DNA from: Alphaproteobacteria bacterium
GTDB lineage: Bacteria > Pseudomonadota > Alphaproteobacteria > Sphingomonadales > Sphingomonadaceae
Length of the DNA: 32,182 nucleotides
Assembly (NCBI GenBank): GCA_003241875.1
Contig: QBLU01000007.1
Span: forward strand, 87,935-120,116
Direction: 5' to 3'
This document shows positions 5,595 to 29,344 of this stretch, piece by piece; positions within the stretch are counted from its first letter, which is position 1; the number at the start of each line of letters is the position of its first letter. Position numbers and translations under genes: made by a program. The notes below the pieces were generated by a model. It had not been told where the DNA came from, did no database searches, and saw only the letters and a program-made list of their open reading frames with translations.

Positions 5595-6410
5595 TCAGGC
5601 TGCGACGGTGCGCCGCCGCCGCTGCATGGCACCGACGAGCCCGAAGCCGGCGATGAGCAGCGCCCAGCTCTCCGGTTCCGGCACCGCAGCCAGCATGTTG
5701 ATCTCGTCGCCGGATATCGAGAGCCCGGCGCCGGCCAGCATCTTGGGCTTGGTGTGGCTGAGCTGGTTGCCGGCCGGGATGGCATAGTTGGCATCCAGCG
5801 CGGCAATGTCGGTGAAGCTCACCATCGTGTTGGCGAGCGGCCCGTTGGTGCCCTTCAGGCCCGAAGGATCATTGGTGTAATCCATGCAGGTGCCCTTGTT
5901 GGCGTCGGTCCGCGCCGAGTTGTTGTGGTCGAGCCCGAGGCTGTGGCCCATCTCGTGGCAGATCGTCATGTCGCGCCACGCGTCGGTGCCATAGCCGCCG
6001 GCGGCGAGATAGTAATCGTTGAGGCGCACCGTCGCCTGAACGATGAAGCCGCCCGACGTCCAGACGTTGGTATAGCCCAGCCAGCCGTTCTTGCCGTAGT
6101 TGCCGTTGCAGATCTGGATGGAACCATAGCTCGGGCCACAGGCCGAGGTCGTCGCCTTGCCGGGCGCCGCCACCAGGTCGATGTAGGCCGCCTGCGACCA
6201 CTGCGCGAGGACGTTGTCGAGTTCCCCGACCCAAAAGCCTTTCAGATTGTTGCCGACGGTGATCTGCAGCGGGCCGGAACGTGCCCAGCGATAGTTGTTC
6301 CAGGATTGCACCAGCGCCGAAGCCGGTGTGGCCGAGACGAGCATGGCCATGGCGGCCAGGCAAAGTCCAGGCAGCCGCCGCGAGGCGGTTTTTGCATTGA
6401 TGGATGTCAT
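5595..6410 (-). CDS. PEPxxWA-CTERM metalloprotease, metzincin-like
   Basis: 271 residues. A signal peptide (residues 1-32, ending ATPASA) precedes a mature domain with the zinc motif H152-E-M-G-H156-S-L-G159-L-D-H162 and a likely Met-turn at C175-M176-D177, which together mark a matrixin/metzincin-type zinc peptidase. The tail is a PEPxxWA-CTERM sorting signal: P244-E-P-E-S-W-A250, a hydrophobic helix, then QRRRR. Such tails direct processing by an exosortase-type enzyme, not encoded here, so the protein is probably displayed on the surface or released by cleavage. The start has a G-rich Shine-Dalgarno (cggggga). It is divergent from another PEPxxWA gene across a 398-bp regulatory region. The protein target is unknown. 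Confidence 0.88.
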   Translation of the reverse strand: MTSINAKTASRRLPGLCLAAMAMLVSATPASALVQSWNNYRWARSGPLQITVGNNLKGFWVGELDNVLAQWSQAAYIDLVAAPGKATTSACGPSYGSIQICNGNYGKNGWLGYTNVWTSGGFIVQATVRLNDYYLAAGGYGTDAWRDMTICHEMGHSLGLDHNNSARTDANKGTCMDYTNDPSGLKGTNGPLANTMVSFTDIAALDANYAIPAGNQLSHTKPKMLAGAGLSISGDEINMLAAVPEPESWALLIAGFGLVGAMQRRRRTVAA

Positions 6411-21492: not shown

Positions 21493-23634
21493 TTACTGGA
21501 AGCGATCGGCAGCCTGGGCCAGTGCGACGTAGAGCCGGCCGACGTTCGAGGACAGCAGCGCCACCGACAGCGACTTGCCCTCGCGGTCGGGGAGCACATG
21601 GCTGATAAGCTTTTCGAATTCCTCGATGTAATGCGTCGCCTTGACCCGGAATTCGGGGTCATGGTGGAAATGCCGTTCGACGGCACGCTGGCCATTGGCG
21701 TCGAGGTGCTCGGCGACGCGGCGGGCAAAGATGCTGCGGTCGCCCTTCATGTAGCTGTCCCAGGCGTTGTCTTCGATCTCGAACGACAGCAGTCCGGCGA
21801 TGTCGATGGCCTCGGCGTGCATAGCGTCGATCAGCTCGCTCGACCGCCGGGCGAGTGTGTTGCGTTCCTTGACCTCGAAGCGGGTGTCGACTTCGTCGAT
21901 CCGCTGCTCGACCTTGGCGACGGTCTCAGTGAGCCCGAGCAGCCGCTGGGTGATGCGATCCGATGCGGCCTGGGCGGCCGCAGCGACCCGCTCGTGCATG
22001 GTTTCGACCTCGGCGAGCTGGGCCCGGATCGGCACGCCGAACGCCAGCTCGGCGCGGCTGCTGCCGACCTGGTCGAGTGCTGCCTCGGCTTCGGCGACGA
22101 CGTTGGTCAACGTTTCGCGCATCGTGCCGGCGGTCTGGTTGGCGATGTCGCGGACGCGGCCGAACACTTCGATCAGCTGGGTCGATGCCGCGAGCGAGGC
22201 GCTGCCGGTATGGGTCTCGATGTCGGCGAGCGCGGTGCGGGCCAGCGACAGGTCTTCGCCGAGCTTGGTCGCCGCGGTATCGAGCGCATTGCGCGCCGCC
22301 TCGAGCTGGGCCTGGGCCGCGGCGATGCTGTCGCCGCCGCTGCGCAGTGGCAGCGACAGCTGGTCGGCGCGCTCGTGCAGGTCGCCGAGGCGCAGCGCCA
22401 TGTCGTCGATCTGCGGCAGGGCCGCAGGCAGCGCGCTCTGCAGCGAGCCGAGCGTGCCCTCCACCGTCAGCCCGATGGCCGCCAGTCGCGATTCGACCGT
22501 CGCCAGCGCCTCTTCGGTCACGCCGATCGGGTCGCCGAGCTGGTGTATCGCCTCGCGTGCCTCGACCATCCGGGCGGCGATGCCTTCGAGCGCGTTGCTG
22601 CCGGTTGTCGCCGAATTGCCGAGCTTGGCATCGAGCACGGTGAAGCTGCGGCTGATCTCCTCGATCATCGCGTTGAAGCGTGCCGACTGGTCATCGAGCT
22701 CGCCGCCGAGCTGGCCGGTGGTGCCAAGCAGATTCTGGAGCCTCTCCCCGATCTGGCGAGCAGCCTCGCCGCCGATATGGTCGAGCGTGACGCGGGCTTG
22801 GTCGACACTTGCCAGCATGGCGTTGGTCTGCGCGTGGACACCGTCGCGGGTGGCGTCCATGGCGGCGGTGGTCCGTGCAAAGGCAGCGTCGACGCCGTCG
22901 ACGAGCTGCGCCAGCGGGGCCGCAACGGCTGCCTGGGCGGTGGTCGAGGCTGTCCCGATGGCGGTGAGGGCGGCGACGGTTTCCGCGGTCGTAGCCCGGG
23001 CCTGGGCTTCGGCGGCGGCGGCTTGATCGTGTAACGCCGTCAGCATGCGCTCGGCTTCGGCAATCTGCTTGTGCAGCCCGGCTTCGGACGCGGCGAGCAT
23101 CGCGGTCAGGCGTTCGGCCTCGGTAACGGCAGCGGGGGTGGCATCGGCCAGCGAAACCGTCGCGTCGCGGGTGTGGGCGGTCGCTTCGGTCAGCTTCATG
23201 CTTGCGGCCTCGAGCGCTCCGACGGCGCCAAGCAGGGTTTCATGCTGGCGCTCGACCGGCCCGGCAATGGCATCGAGGCGGGCGGTCAACGCCGACAGCC
23301 GATCCTCCAGCATGACGAGGGCATTAGCGCTGCGGTCGGTGCGCTGCTCGGCGAGCAGGGCATGGCGCGCCATCAGCTCGGTGCGCTGCGCATTGGCGCC
23401 GCTGCGGTCGCGCAGCTGCCCGGCGACGAGCCAGATTACCGCCAGCGGGGCAGCGAGGATCATGGCTGCCGAGGCGGCGTTCGCAGCCGCGAGCAGCGCT
23501 GCCGATGGCGGGCCGCCCGTCACCAGCGGTGCCAGCGCCAGCGCCGCCAGACAGAGCCAGACGACGCCCGCGACGATGGCCACGACCATCGGCCAGCGCC
23601 GGGATTGCGGCAGTTCCAGATTGTCTTCCATCAT
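21493..23634 (-). CDS. Large two-TM coiled-coil membrane protein of unknown function
   Basis: 713 residues. Two membrane helices (about 17-38 and 52-75, the second VIWLVAGQ) are followed by about 500 residues of Ala/Thr/Glu-rich helical sequence with dense heptad-like spacing. A more globular C-terminal 120 residues begins LARRSSELIDAMHAEAIDIAG and includes SYMKGDRSIFARRVAEHLD and HHDPEFRVKATHYIEEF. The pattern resembles bacterial scaffolds or polarity factors; I recognise no catalytic motif and no methyl-accepting domain. The ATG at 23634 overlaps the stop of the upstream CDP-alcohol transferase (ATGA), giving coupled translation; a GGGGG stretch touches this ATG, so the next ATG (23631) may be used instead. 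Confidence 0.75.
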   Translation of the reverse strand: MMEDNLELPQSRRWPMVVAIVAGVVWLCLAALALAPLVTGGPPSAALLAAANAASAAMILAAPLAVIWLVAGQLRDRSGANAQRTELMARHALLAEQRTDRSANALVMLEDRLSALTARLDAIAGPVERQHETLLGAVGALEAASMKLTEATAHTRDATVSLADATPAAVTEAERLTAMLAASEAGLHKQIAEAERMLTALHDQAAAAEAQARATTAETVAALTAIGTASTTAQAAVAAPLAQLVDGVDAAFARTTAAMDATRDGVHAQTNAMLASVDQARVTLDHIGGEAARQIGERLQNLLGTTGQLGGELDDQSARFNAMIEEISRSFTVLDAKLGNSATTGSNALEGIAARMVEAREAIHQLGDPIGVTEEALATVESRLAAIGLTVEGTLGSLQSALPAALPQIDDMALRLGDLHERADQLSLPLRSGGDSIAAAQAQLEAARNALDTAATKLGEDLSLARTALADIETHTGSASLAASTQLIEVFGRVRDIANQTAGTMRETLTNVVAEAEAALDQVGSSRAELAFGVPIRAQLAEVETMHERVAAAAQAASDRITQRLLGLTETVAKVEQRIDEVDTRFEVKERNTLARRSSELIDAMHAEAIDIAGLLSFEIEDNAWDSYMKGDRSIFARRVAEHLDANGQRAVERHFHHDPEFRVKATHYIEEFEKLISHVLPDREGKSLSVALLSSNVGRLYVALAQAADRFQ

Positions 23635-24476
23635 CCCCCGACGTGGCCGTGCCGAACCGGCATTGACGGATGCAGGGTAAGCGCGGATTCGCAGCGCCGC
23701 AACTGCCATGCCAACGCCAGCGCCAGCAGCGTCAGGACGGCGATTTCCCAGTACCAGTAAAGCAGCGGATTGCCGGCGAGGCAGGCCAGCGCAATGGCGA
23801 TGGTGCGGTTGTTCGCCGACAGCACGCACAGGCGCCGCACCAGCGGCGCGGTCTCGGCCAGATAACGCGGCAGCAGGCCGGGGTCGGCGGCGAGCGTCAC
23901 ATCGACCTCACGGGCGCCGCTGCCCAGCTTTTGCTCGACGCGGTTGTACAGGCCCTCGATGCCCATGCCGGAGGGTGGTCGTGCCTCGGTGCAGAAGACG
24001 CCGCGGGCGCGGCGCTTCCAGGCTTCGCGCTCGCCTTCGTACCAGGCCGACTGCACCGCGTGGCAGGCACCCGAGACCAGTGCCAACGCCAGCACCCAGG
24101 GCCAATCGGCGAACGACAGCGCGATCGGCAGCAGGACGAATACAAAGGCGAGATAATCGCACAGCCCGTCGATGACCCGGCCGAGCGGGCTGGTCTTGCC
24201 GCTGGCCCGCGCCAGCTTGCCGTCGAGCCCGTCCATGATGTGCCAACCGACCATCAGCAGGAAGCCCGCGACGACGTACAGCGGCTGCTGCCAGTGCCAA
24301 TAGCACCAGCCGGCGGCGGCGCCGAACCCCATGCCGGTGAAGGAAACCGTGTTGGGATGGATGCCCAGGCGCAGCGCCAGCGGCAGCAGCTGATCGGCAA
24401 GCGGATGCACCACCCACAGGTTGGTCGGGTCCTCGATGACGGCCGGTCGGGCGATGTTCTGGGTCAAATCGATCAC
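23631..24476 (-). CDS. CDP-alcohol phosphatidyltransferase family protein (canonical motif)
   Basis: 281 residues. Multi-pass membrane enzyme with the full family motif: D82-G-L-D85-G-K-L-A-R90, eight residues, G99-x3-D103-x3-D107. Such enzymes join an alcohol phosphate or alcohol to a CDP-activated lipid or CDP-inositol. An N-terminal soluble stretch (residues 1-25) precedes HPLADQLLPLALRLGIHPNTVS, the usual entry to the first helix; a soluble insert lies at about residues 145-185. The start is GTG 24476, the first start after an in-frame stop, with no clear Shine-Dalgarno. It is divergent from a second CDP-alcohol transferase and the inositol-phosphate synthase operon, so an inositol-linked product is a reasonable inference. 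Confidence 0.85.
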   Translation of the reverse strand: MIDLTQNIARPAVIEDPTNLWVVHPLADQLLPLALRLGIHPNTVSFTGMGFGAAAGWCYWHWQQPLYVVAGFLLMVGWHIMDGLDGKLARASGKTSPLGRVIDGLCDYLAFVFVLLPIALSFADWPWVLALALVSGACHAVQSAWYEGEREAWKRRARGVFCTEARPPSGMGIEGLYNRVEQKLGSGAREVDVTLAADPGLLPRYLAETAPLVRRLCVLSANNRTIAIALACLAGNPLLYWYWEIAVLTLLALALAWQLRRCESALTLHPSMPVRHGHVGG

Positions 24477-24504
24477 GACACTGCGCTAATCGCCACAGTG
24501 CAGC

Positions 24505-24535
24505 CTTGGCAAGCGCCACTGCAACGCCCTATGAG
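24505..24535. promoter_or_regulatory. Divergent promoter region with shared CTTG-G-CAAG element
   Basis: In the 85-bp gap, CTTG (24505-24508), G, CAAG (24510-24513) form an odd palindrome. Rightward it supplies a -35-like TTGGCA (24506-24511) with an 18-nt spacer to TATGAG (24530-24535). Leftward it supplies TTGCCA with a weak -10. The two gene sets may be co-regulated. Confidence 0.35.
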
Positions 24536-24561
24536 GCACGCCGCACAGGCAATGGGGTGTA

Positions 24562-25860
24562 ATGCGTACGGTAGGCCTTTTATTTCCACCTGCTGAAACA
24601 CCGGCTTCGCTGATTGTCGGCGGTATTTCGATCCTGGAACGCCAAGCGCGGCAATTGCGCCGTGCCGGGATCGATGTGCTTTTTGCTGTGGATGTTGTCC
24701 CTTTGACACAGTTGCCGGTCGGCGTGACGCCGGTGGCCGCGGCAGCGCTGTTCGAGCATGTCGAGCCCGGCGACCGGGTCACCGCACTGGCCGCGGGTCT
24801 GATCATCGACGAACGGGCCATCGCGGCCGTGCTGGCGGCGCCGTCGCCGGCCGTGCTGGTGTGCGCGGCCGATGTGGAAGGCGCGCAAGGCGTCGAGCGG
24901 CTCGATGCGCTGACCTTTGCCTGCGGCGTGCTGACGCTGTCAGGGACCGCCCTGCGCACGTTGGCGGCGCGGCTGGGCGAATGGGACCTGGCATCGGTGA
25001 TGACCCGGGCCGTCGCCGGCGACCCTGCGGCGACTCGCATCGCGTTTTCGGACCTGCCCATCTATGCGCCCAATCGCCGACGCGAGATCGCACTGGTATG
25101 GGCGCGTCCGGACACGCCGGAGGCGGCCCGTTCGGTCGGCGAGACGTTGATCGCTGCCTCGCAAAAGGGCTGCCTCGACTGGCCGGCGCGCTTCCTCCAC
25201 CCGCTGCCCGAAAACCTGCTGGTGCGGCTGCTGGCACCGACTCGGGTCACGCCGAACATGGTAACGGTTTTCACCGGCGTCGTCGGGGTTGCGGCCGGCG
25301 TGGCGTTCGCCACCGGCTGGCTGTGGACCGGCCTCATCCTGGCGCTTGTAACCGGGCCGCTCGACGGGGTCGATGGCAAGCTGGCACGGACGCGGGTCGA
25401 ATTTTCGAAATGGGGTGACCTCGAGCACCTTATCGACAAGTTGTTGGAATATGGCTGGTATCTTGCGGTGGCCTGGCACTTCGCGCAGACGCGTGCGTCG
25501 ATGCTGGCGTTCGCCATTGCCGCCTTGATCATCCTGCCGGCCATCGTCGAAGCGGTGCAGGGCGAATTCTTCCGGCGCATCACCGGCATCCAGCTCGATG
25601 ACGCCGGTACAGTCGAACGGCGCCTTCGGTTGTTCGCCGGCCGTCGCAACACCTTTTTGTGGACCTGGGTGCCATTTGCCGCATTCGGCCTCTGGTTTGA
25701 AGGTTTTGTGAGTATTGCAGTTTATAGCGTTGCCACGACTGGCATCGCACAATGGCGTTTTTACAAGAGGTTATCCCAGTACGGTCGCCAGCACGGCGAT
25801 CGGATCGCCGCAAACTACCAGGCGACCTCCTACACCTTCTTGCCCCGGACGGGCGCGTAG
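24562..25860 (+). CDS. CDP-alcohol phosphatidyltransferase with nucleotidyltransferase-like N-terminal domain
   Basis: 432 residues. The first 190 residues (GGISILERQARQLRRAGID, VLVCAADV) resemble a Rossmann-type nucleotidyltransferase without the GxGTR signature. The C-terminal half is a multi-pass CDP-alcohol transferase: D268-G-V-D271-G272-K-L-A275-R276, eight residues, G285. The usual Asp pair then falls on H289 and K293, while E288 and D292 lie one residue early. This two-domain plan resembles IPCT-DIPPS, the bifunctional di-myo-inositol-phosphate enzyme of archaea. The ATG at 24562 has a GGGG upstream. It leads the operon with inositol-3-phosphate synthase, 70 bp downstream. Product not known. 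Confidence 0.8.
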   Translation: MRTVGLLFPPAETPASLIVGGISILERQARQLRRAGIDVLFAVDVVPLTQLPVGVTPVAAAALFEHVEPGDRVTALAAGLIIDERAIAAVLAAPSPAVLVCAADVEGAQGVERLDALTFACGVLTLSGTALRTLAARLGEWDLASVMTRAVAGDPAATRIAFSDLPIYAPNRRREIALVWARPDTPEAARSVGETLIAASQKGCLDWPARFLHPLPENLLVRLLAPTRVTPNMVTVFTGVVGVAAGVAFATGWLWTGLILALVTGPLDGVDGKLARTRVEFSKWGDLEHLIDKLLEYGWYLAVAWHFAQTRASMLAFAIAALIILPAIVEAVQGEFFRRITGIQLDDAGTVERRLRLFAGRRNTFLWTWVPFAAFGLWFEGFVSIAVYSVATTGIAQWRFYKRLSQYGRQHGDRIAANYQATSYTFLPRTGA

Positions 25861-25930
25861 TCTAACTGCAACAAACAAAGCTGGGGTCCGCGGCTGATGA
25901 ATCGTGCCGCCCGAAAAGGAACTTTCAACC

Positions 25931-27031
25931 ATGTCGTCCATTCCCGTCGCCATCGTCGGCGTTGGCAATTGTGCATCTTCGCTCGTTCAGGGCCTGTCGT
26001 ATTACTCGAATGGCGGCTCCAACGACGAACAGGGCCTGATGCATTGGGACTTGGCCGGCTATCGGCCCAAGGACATTGAAATCGTTGCAGCCTGGGACGT
26101 CGACGCGCGCAAGGTCGGCAAGGACGTCGGCGAAGCTATCTTTGCCAAGCCCAACTGCACCGCAGTGTTCTGTGACCATGTCGGCAAGACCGGCGCGATC
26201 GTGTCGATGGGCCGCGTCCTCGATGGCGCTTCAGATCATATGAACGCCTATCACGAAGATCGGCGCTTCGTCGTGGCCGACCTGCCGCAGGCCACCAAGG
26301 CGTCGGTCGTCGAGGAACTGAAGCGCTCGGGCGCCCAGGTGATGACCAACTACCTGCCCGTCGGCAGCCAGGAAGCCACCGAATTCTATGCCGATGCCGC
26401 GATCACCGCGGGCGTCGCCTTCGTCAACAACATCCCGGTCTTCATTGCGTCGAATCCGGAGTGGGCCGAGCGTTTCCGCGCGGCCGGCGTCCCCATTCTG
26501 GGTGACGACATCAAGGCGCAGCTGGGCGCCACCATCGTCCACCGCACGCTGACCGACCTGTTCGCCAAGCGCGGCGTGACGCTCGATCGCACCTATCAGC
26601 TCAACACCGGTGGCAACACCGACTTCCTCAACATGACGAACAAGGATCGGCTGGCTTCAAAGAAGAAGTCGAAGACCGAGGCTGTCCAGTCGGTGGCGCA
26701 CATCCGCCTCGACGACGACAACATCCATGTCGGCCCGTCCGATTATGTGGCCTGGCAGAACGACAACAAGGTCTGCTTCCTGCGCATGGAAGGCCGCATG
26801 TTCGGCGGCGTGCCGCTCAACCTCGAGCTGCGCCTGTCGGTCGAGGACAGCCCGAACAGTGCCGGTGTCGCCATCGACATGATCCGTTGCGCAAAGGTCG
26901 CCCTCGATCGCAAGATCGGCGGCCCGATCCTCACGCCGTCGTCATACTTCTGCAAGCATCCGCCGGTCCAGGTGACCGACGACGAGGCCTATGCCGCGCT
27001 GGAAGAATTCATCGCTGGCACCGTCAACTAA
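25931..27031 (+). CDS. ino1: Inositol-3-phosphate synthase
   Basis: 366 residues, the short bacterial/archaeal form (eukaryotic enzymes exceed 500). It converts glucose 6-phosphate to inositol phosphate by an NAD-dependent oxidation-aldol-reduction. The NAD motif G10-V-G-N-C-A-S is at the N-terminus; further signatures are LPVGSQEATEFYADAA, GDDIKAQLGATI, and LNTGGNTDFLNM with a following KKKSKTEAV, which carries catalytic lysines of the family. The ATG at 25931 (MSSIPVAIVG) has AAAAGGA about 11 bases upstream; a GTG at 25904 is less likely. It lies inside the inositol locus, between an activating enzyme and a CDP-alcohol transferase. Confidence 0.93.
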   Translation: MSSIPVAIVGVGNCASSLVQGLSYYSNGGSNDEQGLMHWDLAGYRPKDIEIVAAWDVDARKVGKDVGEAIFAKPNCTAVFCDHVGKTGAIVSMGRVLDGASDHMNAYHEDRRFVVADLPQATKASVVEELKRSGAQVMTNYLPVGSQEATEFYADAAITAGVAFVNNIPVFIASNPEWAERFRAAGVPILGDDIKAQLGATIVHRTLTDLFAKRGVTLDRTYQLNTGGNTDFLNMTNKDRLASKKKSKTEAVQSVAHIRLDDDNIHVGPSDYVAWQNDNKVCFLRMEGRMFGGVPLNLELRLSVEDSPNSAGVAIDMIRCAKVALDRKIGGPILTPSSYFCKHPPVQVTDDEAYAALEEFIAGTVN

Positions 27032-27040
27032 TCGGCTCTG

Positions 27041-27070
27041 CGGGGCCGGGAGCGCGCGCTTCCGGCCCCG
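27041..27070 (+). terminator. Strong hairpin between ino1 and the nucleotidyltransferase gene
   Basis: CGGGGCCGG (27041-27049) pairs with CCGGCCCCG (27062-27070), and the inner bases GAGCG/CGCTT extend the stem to about 14 bp with one G-T pair. It is followed by TTCGCT rather than a T-run, and the next ATG lies only 6 bases later. It may attenuate the downstream gene rather than end transcription. Confidence 0.5.
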
Positions 27071-27076
27071 TTCGCT

Positions 27077-27754
27077 ATGCAGGCAATCATCCTCGCGGCC
27101 GGCATGGGCACGCGGCTGCGATCGGTCTCCCCGTCGAAGCCGTTGACGATGGTCGCCGGCCGGCCGCTGATCCACCGCATTCTCGACAATCTGGCGGCCG
27201 CCGGCATCACCCGGCCGCTGGTCATCACCGGCTATCGCGGCGACGAGGTCGCGGCGGCGGTTCATGCCTGGGGCGCCGAGACGCTTCACAACCCCGAATG
27301 GGCGCAACCCAACGGCGTGTCGGTGCTCGCTGCCGCACCGCGGCTCGAGTCCGAGGCGCTGCTGGTCATGGCCGATCATCTGGCCAGCCCCGGCGTCTAT
27401 GCAACGGTTGCGGCCTCCGGCAATCCGCATGCCGGGCTGGTGCTCGGCATCGATCGGCGTCTGGGGCATCCCTGGGCCGACGAGGCGGATGTTACCCGCG
27501 TCGCCACACGGCAGGGCCGCATCGTCGCCATCGGCAAGCAGATCTGCACCTATGACGCGCATGACTGCGGCGTTTTCCTGATCACGCCCGAACTCATGGC
27601 GGCACTGGCGCCGCTGCCGGCGCCCGGGCTGTCGGATGGTGTCAGGGCGCTGGCGGCCACGGGCCGGGCGCTGACGGTGGATATCTCTGCCCACGACTGG
27701 ATCGACATCGACGACCCGCGCGCGTTGGCGCTGGCGGAGGACTGGGTGGGGTAA
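27077..27754 (+). CDS. Nucleotidyltransferase, inositol-phosphate cytidylyltransferase-like
   Basis: 225 residues. The N-terminus has the nucleotide-binding signature A7-A8-G9-M-G-T-R13-L14 followed by K21-P22-L23. VMADHL carries the metal-binding Asp, and the C-terminus HDWIDIDDPRALALAEDW matches the metal/substrate-binding Asp cluster of sugar-nucleotide and IPCT enzymes. IPCT makes CDP-inositol from CTP and inositol 1-phosphate; given the neighbouring inositol-3-phosphate synthase this is the likeliest role, but nucleotide and sugar specificity cannot be read. No Shine-Dalgarno is seen; the ATG directly follows the hairpin at 27041-27070. Converges on the Wzi-like gene with 18 bp between stops. 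Confidence 0.82.
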   Translation: MQAIILAAGMGTRLRSVSPSKPLTMVAGRPLIHRILDNLAAAGITRPLVITGYRGDEVAAAVHAWGAETLHNPEWAQPNGVSVLAAAPRLESEALLVMADHLASPGVYATVAASGNPHAGLVLGIDRRLGHPWADEADVTRVATRQGRIVAIGKQICTYDAHDCGVFLITPELMAALAPLPAPGLSDGVRALAATGRALTVDISAHDWIDIDDPRALALAEDWVG

Positions 27755-27772
27755 CGGCCCGCCCGGCGGCGG

Positions 27773-29344
27773 CTAGAACCGCTGGCGGAACTGCACTTCC
27801 ACCGCCGCCTGGCGATCCCGGAACCCGGGCGTGTTCGGCGAATCGGTTTGCAGGCGTCCCTCGATCCGCACGTCGCCGAACGCCAGCGGCAGCTCGGCAC
27901 CGGCGGTCACGATCGCGAACTTTTCCGCATTGGCCGAAATCCGGTAGCTGACGAGGCCGCGGAGGGCGCCGGTCGGGTCGGTGGCCGGAAACGGCGGATT
28001 GCCGACATTGTTGAAGTTGAGATGCACCGATCGCACCGACCCATACCAGCGCCGATTGCGGGTGTCGGTCACGGCGGCGGAGAATGAAAGGTTGCGGCTG
28101 TCGCCATCGGTCCAATAGCCGATTGGCCGGCCGCGATAGGTAAAACCGTCGAAATACAGACTGTTGTTGTACATGGAGCCGGGATAGGTCGTCTCGCCGC
28201 CGGTCACCGATTCCAGCGGCGTGCCGTTGAACAACGATGCGGCCTGGGTGTCGGCATATTCGACTGTCGCCACCCAGCTGGCGCCCTTCTTGCCCCAGGG
28301 ACCCTGCAGCGTCATGCCGACCTGACGCGAATATTGCTCGAGGATGATGTTGTCGAAATCCTCGGCTTCGGCCTCGACATAGAACTTTGCCGATACCGGC
28401 CCGAACCGCTGGGTATAGCTGATGTCCCAGCCGGCGATCTGGTTGCCGGCCTGTTGCAGGAACGCGGTCGGATCTCCAGGGGTCGGGTTGTCGGCGTTGC
28501 CGAAGCCGATGAAGCTGCTGCTGATCTGCTTCAGTCCGCAGGGCCGTCCGTCGCCGCACAGCATTTGCGCGCGGTTCAGCCCGATCGACAGCCCGCGCGC
28601 CGGTTCGAAGCCGACGCGGGTGCCAAAAGTCAGGATGTTGGCATAGTCGCGGCGCGGGCCATTGAGGACGCCTCCGAAGATTTCGAACTGCACCGGCCCG
28701 AGCCAGCGCAGCACCGGGAAATCGATGCGTTCCGGCACCAGTCGCTTCAAGCCGACCTTGGGAATCGGCCGCGCGCTGTTCGACCAGAGCAGGGCGCCGT
28801 CGTGGCCGGGGCCGAACCATTGCTCGGTATAACCGCCATAGACGGCCCAGTTGCCGAAGCGCACCGCGATCTGTGAAGGCTCGAAATGCAGGTAGCTGTT
28901 GTCCTGGCCGCCGGCGCCGGCGCGATAGCCAACGCCGAGCGCGACACTGACCACGTCGCTGTTGAATTCGACCCGTCCCGAGGCATCGCCCTTGCCGCGC
29001 GCCAGGGTGCCGAAGTCGCGTGCGACCGAAACGTCGTTGGTCGCGCCGAGCCGGATGTCGACGGCCTTGCGCTGCGCCGCCAGGTCACCGAGCCGATCGA
29101 GCCGGTCCACCGCCGCCTTCAGCCACGGATCAAGCGTGCGTCCGTCGTGCGCCTTGTCGAGGCCGGTATCGATCTGTGCCCAGGGCAGCGGCCAGCTGTC
29201 GACCGGCCCATCGATCAGCCCGGCGGCCTTCAGCAGGTCGACGTCCTGGCGCAACTGCCGGTCGCCGACTTCGGCGAAAGGACCGGCCAGCGACGGCGTG
29301 GCAACCAACGCCGCGAGCAGCGATGCCAAGGCAAGAAAACGCAT
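27773..29344 (-). CDS. Capsule assembly Wzi-family outer-membrane beta-barrel protein
   Basis: 523 residues. A signal peptide (residues 1-20, ending PSLAG) is followed by a helical N-terminal segment (LRQDVDLLKAAGLIDGPVDSWPLPW) and then alternating aromatic and polar strands to a C-terminal RQRF, the aromatic end of outer-membrane barrels. The elements SYLHFEPSQIAVRFGNW, YTEQWFGPGHDGALLWSNSARPIP and RIDFPVLRWLGPVQFE are those of the Wzi family, whose E. coli member attaches capsular polysaccharide to the cell surface. No capsule genes are close by, so the ligand is unknown. It lies 31 bp after gltA on the same strand. Confidence 0.85.
   Translation of the reverse strand: MRFLALASLLAALVATPSLAGPFAEVGDRQLRQDVDLLKAAGLIDGPVDSWPLPWAQIDTGLDKAHDGRTLDPWLKAAVDRLDRLGDLAAQRKAVDIRLGATNDVSVARDFGTLARGKGDASGRVEFNSDVVSVALGVGYRAGAGGQDNSYLHFEPSQIAVRFGNWAVYGGYTEQWFGPGHDGALLWSNSARPIPKVGLKRLVPERIDFPVLRWLGPVQFEIFGGVLNGPRRDYANILTFGTRVGFEPARGLSIGLNRAQMLCGDGRPCGLKQISSSFIGFGNADNPTPGDPTAFLQQAGNQIAGWDISYTQRFGPVSAKFYVEAEAEDFDNIILEQYSRQVGMTLQGPWGKKGASWVATVEYADTQAASLFNGTPLESVTGGETTYPGSMYNNSLYFDGFTYRGRPIGYWTDGDSRNLSFSAAVTDTRNRRWYGSVRSVHLNFNNVGNPPFPATDPTGALRGLVSYRISANAEKFAIVTAGAELPLAFGDVRIEGRLQTDSPNTPGFRDRQAAVEVQFRQRF

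Follow-up and report, generated by a model that had tools for sequence, protein, structure and literature searches.

A compact locus in a 32,182-nt stretch of contig QBLU01000007.1, from an alphaproteobacterium of the Sphingomonadaceae (this whole stretch is hereafter called the window, and all positions below are its own), most likely directs the synthesis of inositol phosphoceramide, an inositol phospholipid that would be made by way of CDP-inositol with ceramide as acceptor, a reading to which we give a probability of roughly 0.57. The locus encodes an inositol-3-phosphate synthase (MIPS), a putative CTP:inositol-1-phosphate cytidylyltransferase (IPCT), a CDP-alcohol transferase that we call P1 and a further protein, P2. 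In the proposed pathway, MIPS would convert glucose 6-phosphate into inositol 3-phosphate (that is, L-inositol 1-phosphate), as expected by homology, and IPCT would combine this inositol phosphate with CTP into CDP-inositol, as suggested by homology, adjacency and gene fusion. P1, a membrane enzyme, would then move the phosphoinositol group of CDP-inositol onto the free hydroxyl of ceramide and release CMP, as choline/ethanolamine phosphotransferases do with their headgroups in the Kennedy pathway, the ceramide presumably being supplied by the organism's own serine palmitoyltransferase (SPT) gene group located elsewhere in the genome. Taken part by part, the locus very probably runs a CDP-inositol route and its product is probably a lipid; both statements, like the choice of ceramide, are drawn from sequence comparison. 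The elements of the locus are as follows.

23631–24476, minus strand: P1, proposed CDP-inositol:ceramide inositolphosphotransferase, 281 aa (PF01066, structural model, clade and invariant motif)
24477–24561, no strand: divergent intergenic region of 85 bp between P1 and the genes P2, MIPS and IPCT
24562–25860, plus strand: P2, probable accessory protein, 432 aa, with a degenerate IPCT-like domain and a variant-motif CDP-alcohol transferase domain (hhalign, Foldseek and motif)
25931–27031, plus strand: MIPS, inositol-3-phosphate synthase, 366 aa (PF01658 and match to 1gr0; the open reading frame opens at 25904)
27032–27076, plus strand: spacer between MIPS and IPCT, with a strong hairpin (-34.2 kcal/mol)
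27077–27754, plus strand: IPCT, putative CTP:inositol-1-phosphate cytidylyltransferase, 225 aa (PDB matches, family profile and PF12804)

An earlier note on this DNA, made by a model from the letters alone, had placed four genes here, two of them CDP-alcohol transferases, around an 85-bp divergent gap. The four open reading frames (ORFs) and the gap were all recovered at those places, and the Pfam assignments agree: PF01066 scores 41.8 bits in P1 and 34.4 bits in P2 (cut-off 22), PF01658 118.1 bits in MIPS (cut-off 27) and PF12804 62.4 bits in IPCT (cut-off 27). Both transferases thus carry PF01066, while the view of P2 as an ordinary second enzyme does not hold, given its degenerate N-terminal domain and altered motif. 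Regarding MIPS, the ORF spans 25904–27031 on the plus strand, and the preferred start codon is the ATG at position 25931, which is preceded by AAAGGAAC.

MIPS, IPCT and the supply of CDP-inositol

MIPS matches the solved inositol-3-phosphate synthase 1gr0, which we take to be the M. tuberculosis enzyme, over its full length (E 3.5e-116, residues 11–372); on the equivalog model TIGR03450 (mycothiol_INO1) it scores 441 bits, under the cut-off of 638. For IPCT, the three best chains of a phmmer search against the PDB are all IPCTs, namely 2xme and 4mnd from the IPCT/DIPPS enzyme of Archaeoglobus fulgidus and 4jd0 from Thermotoga maritima, and the family profile gives these solved IPCTs 122, 120 and 101 bits versus 53 for the next nucleotidyltransferase, a gap of about 50 bits. 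IPCT possesses the AAGxGxR loop and the lysine that place it by sequence in this CDP-inositol-forming family, and the motifs AAGMGTRL and HDWIDID previously read in it are both present. Moreover, two alphaproteobacterial genomes, each from a different family, have MIPS and IPCT fused in a single ORF, of 625 aa in G438 (L209:3427-5304) and of 631 aa in G202 (L210:2240-4135). That enzymes of consecutive steps are joined in this way argues strongly, if indirectly, for inositol phosphate as the substrate of IPCT, which should accordingly use the product of MIPS. With IPCT closest to solved IPCTs, the two fusions and the short distance to MIPS described below, the CDP-inositol route put forward in the earlier note is well supported; its statement that the route is uncharacterized in this order also agrees with the open-licence literature, the titles and abstract openings listed including no paper that assigns such genes in sphingomonads.

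A core of three genes in Sphingomonadales

The order was sampled by one draw of 196 genomes, each searched with the four proteins; two partial MIPS matches (G174 and G192) and the IPCT and P1 matches weaker than 1e-20 (for P1, G002) were left out of the co-occurrence count, and P2 matches were called strong at E below 1e-30. MIPS was found in 71 genomes, IPCT in 63, P1 in 62 and all three in 59. Every genome with IPCT also holds MIPS (63/63), within 5 kb of it in 61 of the 63, and IPCT is present in 59 of the 62 P1 genomes (the three others being G009, G078 and G104), with P1 at most 10 kb from MIPS in 45 of the 60 genomes that hold both. Eight genomes have MIPS without IPCT. Each pair among the three genes gives a nominal Fisher p below 1e-35, the genomes being related and hence not independent. 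P2 has a strong match in 26 genomes, all of which carry P1, and because 36 of the 62 P1 carriers are devoid of one, the conserved core consists of three genes, MIPS, IPCT and P1, with P2 outside it. The earlier note had called for a survey of the four genes and counted a failure to co-occur in relatives against itself: MIPS, IPCT and P1 do travel together, whereas P2 follows in only 26 of the 62 P1 carriers.

P1 is likewise present in 93 of 149 sampled Novosphingobium genomes. When the contigs of named genomes were scanned with a Novosphingobium MIPS profile, at least 80 loci were obtained, which are a sample. Among the matches listed, 38 loci have a MIPS identity of at least 70% (L090–L125, L133 and L157) and 36 of these also hold P1 and IPCT, the two exceptions being L114, where a contig end cuts into MIPS, and L133, in which P1 is not matched. 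The trio carriers among these listed matches include N. percolationis, N. sediminis, N. pokkalii, S. adhaesiva, S. mucosissima, S. phyllosphaerae and Croceibacterium xixiisoli, and all three genes are found as well in Kordiimonas marina (L146) and at locus L147. The other 40 listed loci contain no P1 match above 60 bits; 10 of them have an IPCT-DIPPS fusion near MIPS, 2 a variant-motif fusion and 6 a short PIPS-like protein. A survey of 53 neighbourhoods was made with greedy ORF calls, by which antisense ORFs displaced MIPS or IPCT in several rows that were then re-scored. Outside the core, no gene is common to more than 14 of these 53 loci except P2 (16/53), and several named Sphingomonas loci hold P1, MIPS and IPCT with none of the five other profiles searched.

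A second MIPS context, without IPCT or P1, was observed in seven sphingomonad genomes (L036, L039, L041, L043, L045, L046 and L047). It carries glycosyltransferases, epimerases, a methyltransferase and oxidoreductases and probably serves another inositol product.

P1 and its acceptor

P1 possesses a complete CDP-alcohol motif (D82xxD85GxxA89R90...G99xxxD103xxxD107), whose residues are among the 16 invariant positions in an alignment of 40 members. Its AlphaFold model (pLDDT 91) retrieves only CDP-alcohol transferases at Foldseek ranks 1–27 (probability at least 0.69), these matches being weak (E at least 0.005, TM-scores 0.25–0.51). In the tree, P1 proteins form one clade (support 98/98) apart from the DIPPS fusions (96/91), to which P1 does not belong, from PIPS-like proteins and from the two other CDP-alcohol enzymes of the window genome, taken as PgsA and PssA by motif. 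P1 is also devoid of LDSxLDRY, a signature that PIPS-like and DIPPS proteins share: the third and fourth aspartates of P1 lie in DGLCDY, to be compared with DHGCDS in CEPT1, LDSxLDR in PIPS-like and DIPPS proteins and LDPIADK in PgsA-like ones. Directly behind the last motif aspartate, PIPS-like proteins, DIPPS and PgsA have R or K, and PssA, CEPT1 and P1 have neither. Because P1 has no R or K there, unlike families that use phosphate-ester acceptors, we read its acceptor as unphosphorylated. A single-sequence search of the PDB with P1 matched only choline/ethanolamine phosphotransferases, weakly (CEPT1, E 6e-5).

The strongest reason for proposing ceramide comes from gene clusters outside the order. 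In a class sample of 385 genomes, window genome included, P1-profile matches over 300 bits were found only in the window genome and in two genomes outside the order, G546 and G438, the other matches listed being at most 80.5 bits. These two were compared for SPT with 40 other class genomes, and a trio-gene follow-up took 21 of these 42. SPT identity is 53% in G546 and 49% in G438; it reaches at least 47% in 4 of the 40 others (G233, G231, G221 and G220) and at most 38% in the rest. In G546, about 13 kb contain SPT, an acyl-carrier protein, an ORF, LptF/G, P1, IPCT and MIPS, followed by a glycosyltransferase-like protein, an acyl-AMP ligase, a GNAT protein and a fatty-acid hydroxylase. In G438, one contig has the MIPS-IPCT ORF 2 kb from SPT, with an ORF and a fatty-acid hydroxylase between them, and another has P1, the N-terminal third of SPT, an epimerase, an AMP-binding enzyme (acyl-AMP ligase) and two LptF/G proteins. 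Since these two clusters, from different families, tie P1 to sphingolipid genes, ceramide is preferred over other acceptors. In G202, the other genome with a MIPS-IPCT fusion, the CDP-alcohol enzyme is a different one, scoring 79 bits to P1, and the SPT match reaches only 35%. As to the window genome itself, its SPT matches the serine palmitoyltransferase 2x8u in the PDB (E 7.8e-210), and the genes after it encode an epimerase and an AMP-binding enzyme, an arrangement that we take to resemble known bacterial ceramide genes.

Of note, LptF/LptG paralogues adjoin P1 in both sphingolipid clusters (L196:7383-8804 and L197:4879-7142); they are possibly lipid exporters.

Several observations weigh against inositol phosphoceramide or against this function of P1. 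Among PDB structures, a P1 profile scores AF2299 highest, ahead of CEPT1 and then mycobacterial PgsA1, so that P1 would by sequence alone fit more than one donor; the acceptor-residue rule is our own and has few sequences behind it. The closest curated NCBI models are phosphatidylinositol-phosphate (PIP) and archaetidylinositol-phosphate synthases, whose substrates are a CDP-lipid and inositol phosphate: PIPSynth and archin_ph_syn of NCBIfam each match 40/40 P1 members weakly (E at most 0.001), the P1 of the window scoring far under their cut-offs (33/170 and 55/180 bits). Four of the 63 IPCT genomes have no P1 match (G042, G048, G075 and G163, the last 100% complete). In N. acidiphilum, one paper reports a lipid resembling a phosphatidylinositol-dihydroceramide and no homology to either inositol-lipid cluster of Bacteroidetes (PMC9246714), which could mean that the trio is absent there. 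The link to SPT comes from two draft genomes that were inspected once they were known to carry P1, and in G438 it spans two contigs. Within the order, SPT is nearly universal (190/196 genomes) and so does not discriminate; its presence was rejected as evidence, P1 carriers (57/62) being if anything slightly poorer in it than other genomes (133/134), and SPT and MIPS lie at least 60 kb apart in the 10 order genomes compared that have both on one contig. Finally, 5 of the 62 P1 carriers have no SPT match; four of these are 53–74% complete, and the fifth, G014 (L066), has MIPS, IPCT, P1 and P2 in an assembly of 800 contigs with 97% completeness and 6% contamination, so that a gap, contamination or the use of another acceptor in its lineage would explain the missing SPT.

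Among the alternatives, the foremost, possible and yet distinctly less probable than ceramide, retains the CDP-inositol route and makes diacylglycerol the acceptor, P1 then forming phosphatidylinositol in a bacterial Kennedy-type reaction as proposed for Bacteroides vulgatus. Choline/ethanolamine phosphotransferases use diacylglycerol, and they are the only single-sequence PDB matches of P1; G014, with the trio and no SPT match, would also fit, as would the transfer from CDP-inositol to diacylglycerol that is proposed for the alternative cluster of Bacteroidetes (PMC9246714). However, in both P1 carriers from outside the order SPT is present and trio genes adjoin it, and the lipid reported from N. 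acidiphilum resembles a PI-dihydroceramide (PMC9246714). It is improbable that P1 is instead of the PIP-synthase type, using CDP-diacylglycerol and inositol phosphate while IPCT serves a separate product: the two NCBIfam models do match all P1 members and PIP synthases are among the top Foldseek matches of the P1 model, but IPCT would be left unexplained although it is found in 59 of 62 P1 genomes, P1 forms its own clade without LDSxLDRY, and Pfam shows no lipid phosphatase in the 17 ORFs scanned, which are part of the ORFs of the window. Slightly less credible still is the attachment of phosphoinositol to an envelope glycan or glycolipid rather than to a simple lipid. A Wzi-like protein adjoins IPCT in the window, and of the 53 surveyed loci, 14 encode a protein with a Polysacc_synt (flippase) match below cut-off, 8 have an MMPL transporter and several contain glycosyltransferases; the lack of any widely shared gene beyond the core, P2 aside, and the named Sphingomonas loci reduced to the trio speak against it. 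As for di-myo-inositol phosphate or another soluble phosphodiester, as in hyperthermophiles, the gene set (MIPS, IPCT and a CDP-alcohol transferase) and the IPCT-DIPPS architecture of P2 are those expected, and it is nevertheless the most remote of the four, with P1 outside the DIPPS clade and linked to SPT, and P2 strong in only 26 of 62 P1 carriers with H and K in place of its third and fourth aspartates. Of the products listed in the earlier note (an inositol phospholipid, an inositol sphingolipid or an inositol phosphodiester), a lipid, most likely a sphingolipid, is thereby favoured and the soluble phosphodiester disfavoured.

P2, gene surroundings and known inositol lipid systems

P2 appears to be a fusion whose IPCT part has decayed. 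Its residues 13–164 align to the IPCT profile (hhalign of residues 1–184: probability 92, E 5.8e-7) and its N-terminal domain has no AAGxGxR nucleotide loop; its model (pLDDT 90) matches AF2299 (8.5e-12) and the IPCT-DIPPS of A. fulgidus (1.7e-11) in Foldseek. The CDP-alcohol motif is a variant, D268..D271G..AR276-x8-G285..E288H289..D292K293, which departs from DxxDGxxARx8GxxxDxxxD by His289 and Lys293 at the third and fourth aspartate positions, the PF01066 score still being over its cut-off, and further motif loss is seen in relatives (L037, L069, L077 and L082). P2 was therefore rejected as the key transferase, on its distribution, its missing loop and this erosion, and a catalytic role is doubtful. 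It should not be dismissed, since all 26 P2 genomes carry P1 and since the same EH..D is found in two fusions that adjoin MIPS and whose IPCT part is intact (L134:5585-6958 and L145:1561-2934, on contigs labelled Omnitrophota and Altiarchaeales). We infer an accessory protein, which would act in P1 carriers as an optional helper or second transferase; the decay of its IPCT part perhaps followed takeover by the separate IPCT gene. In 7 of the 53 loci, belonging to Novosphingobium and allies, the place of P2 near P1 is taken by another CDP-alcohol protein of two parts, c16, which retains all four motif aspartates.

As for the surroundings, a promoter scan found no match to the sigma-70 consensus in 23500–28000, the P1/P2 divergent gap included. 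Positions 27026–27084 fold into a very stable hairpin (-34.2 kcal/mol, z -3.4) directly before the IPCT start, with no T-run. The trio is flanked by the Wzi-like protein beside IPCT and by an ORF without Pfam match. The latter, a long minus-strand ORF at 21493–23634 whose start overlaps the P1 stop (ATGA), has a counterpart that also adjoins P1 in L044 and L076, and it is a possible coupled partner of P1. Outward transport of the lipid could, in some relatives, be the task of the flippase-like protein or MMPL-type transporter that adjoins the trio. Farther away, the minus strand at 5595–6410 encodes a PEP-CTERM protein containing a metallopeptidase-like stretch.

In bacteria, inositol lipids are regarded as relatively rare, and a putative CDP-inositol route, itself unproven, is described in Bacteroides vulgatus and Prevotella (PMC9246714). 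Compared by description, that cluster likewise brings together MIPS, a nucleotidyltransferase proposed to form CDP-inositol and a CDP-alcohol phosphotransferase, and no PIP intermediate is proposed; unlike it, the trio of the window has no adjacent HAD hydrolase (nor is one present in the 17 window ORFs given a Pfam scan), and so falls outside that cluster type, and its proposed acceptor is ceramide rather than diacylglycerol. With respect to the A. fulgidus IPCT/DIPPS, the differences are that IPCT stands alone in the window and that P1 forms a separate clade without LDSxLDR, whereas the fusion architecture is kept by P2. P1 resembles CEPT1/CPT1 of the Kennedy pathway in the use of a CDP-alcohol donor and a lipid hydroxyl and in DGLCD (DHGCD in CEPT1), a weak match as stated above; it would differ from them in its donor alcohol, inositol and not choline or ethanolamine, and in its ceramide acceptor. 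The fungal AUR1-type inositol phosphoceramide synthase takes its headgroup from phosphatidylinositol and has another fold; the proposed product class is the same, and the donor here would be CDP-inositol. In Caulobacter, the CPG2 pathway involves CpgD, a COG1213 cytidylyltransferase for a sphingolipid headgroup that forms CDP-glycerate (PMC12275187). By this description, and as is proposed for the window, a related cytidylyltransferase provides the CDP-linked headgroup of an anionic sphingolipid in this alphaproteobacterium; there the headgroup is glycerate, and the use of CDP-glycerate by CpgA is only proposed.

On balance, and by a narrow margin of confidence, we consider the P1 clade to be a dedicated CDP-inositol:ceramide inositolphosphotransferase fed by MIPS and IPCT, which would constitute a further, phosphatidylinositol-independent route in Alphaproteobacteria, frequent in Sphingomonadales and found inside the sphingolipid clusters of at least two other lineages, and which may explain the PI-dihydroceramide-like lipid of Novosphingobium. 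The trio would provide candidate genes for the inositol-like sphingolipid of a related bacterium, reported without known genes. If P1 works as proposed, 62 of the 196 genomes of the order and 93 of the 149 Novosphingobium genomes hold an inositol lipid transferase gene. Sphingomonads have sphingolipids instead of lipopolysaccharide, so that their outer membrane would be affected by a headgroup that carries charge. If true, P1 would be an enzyme making inositol phosphoceramide straight from a nucleotide donor.

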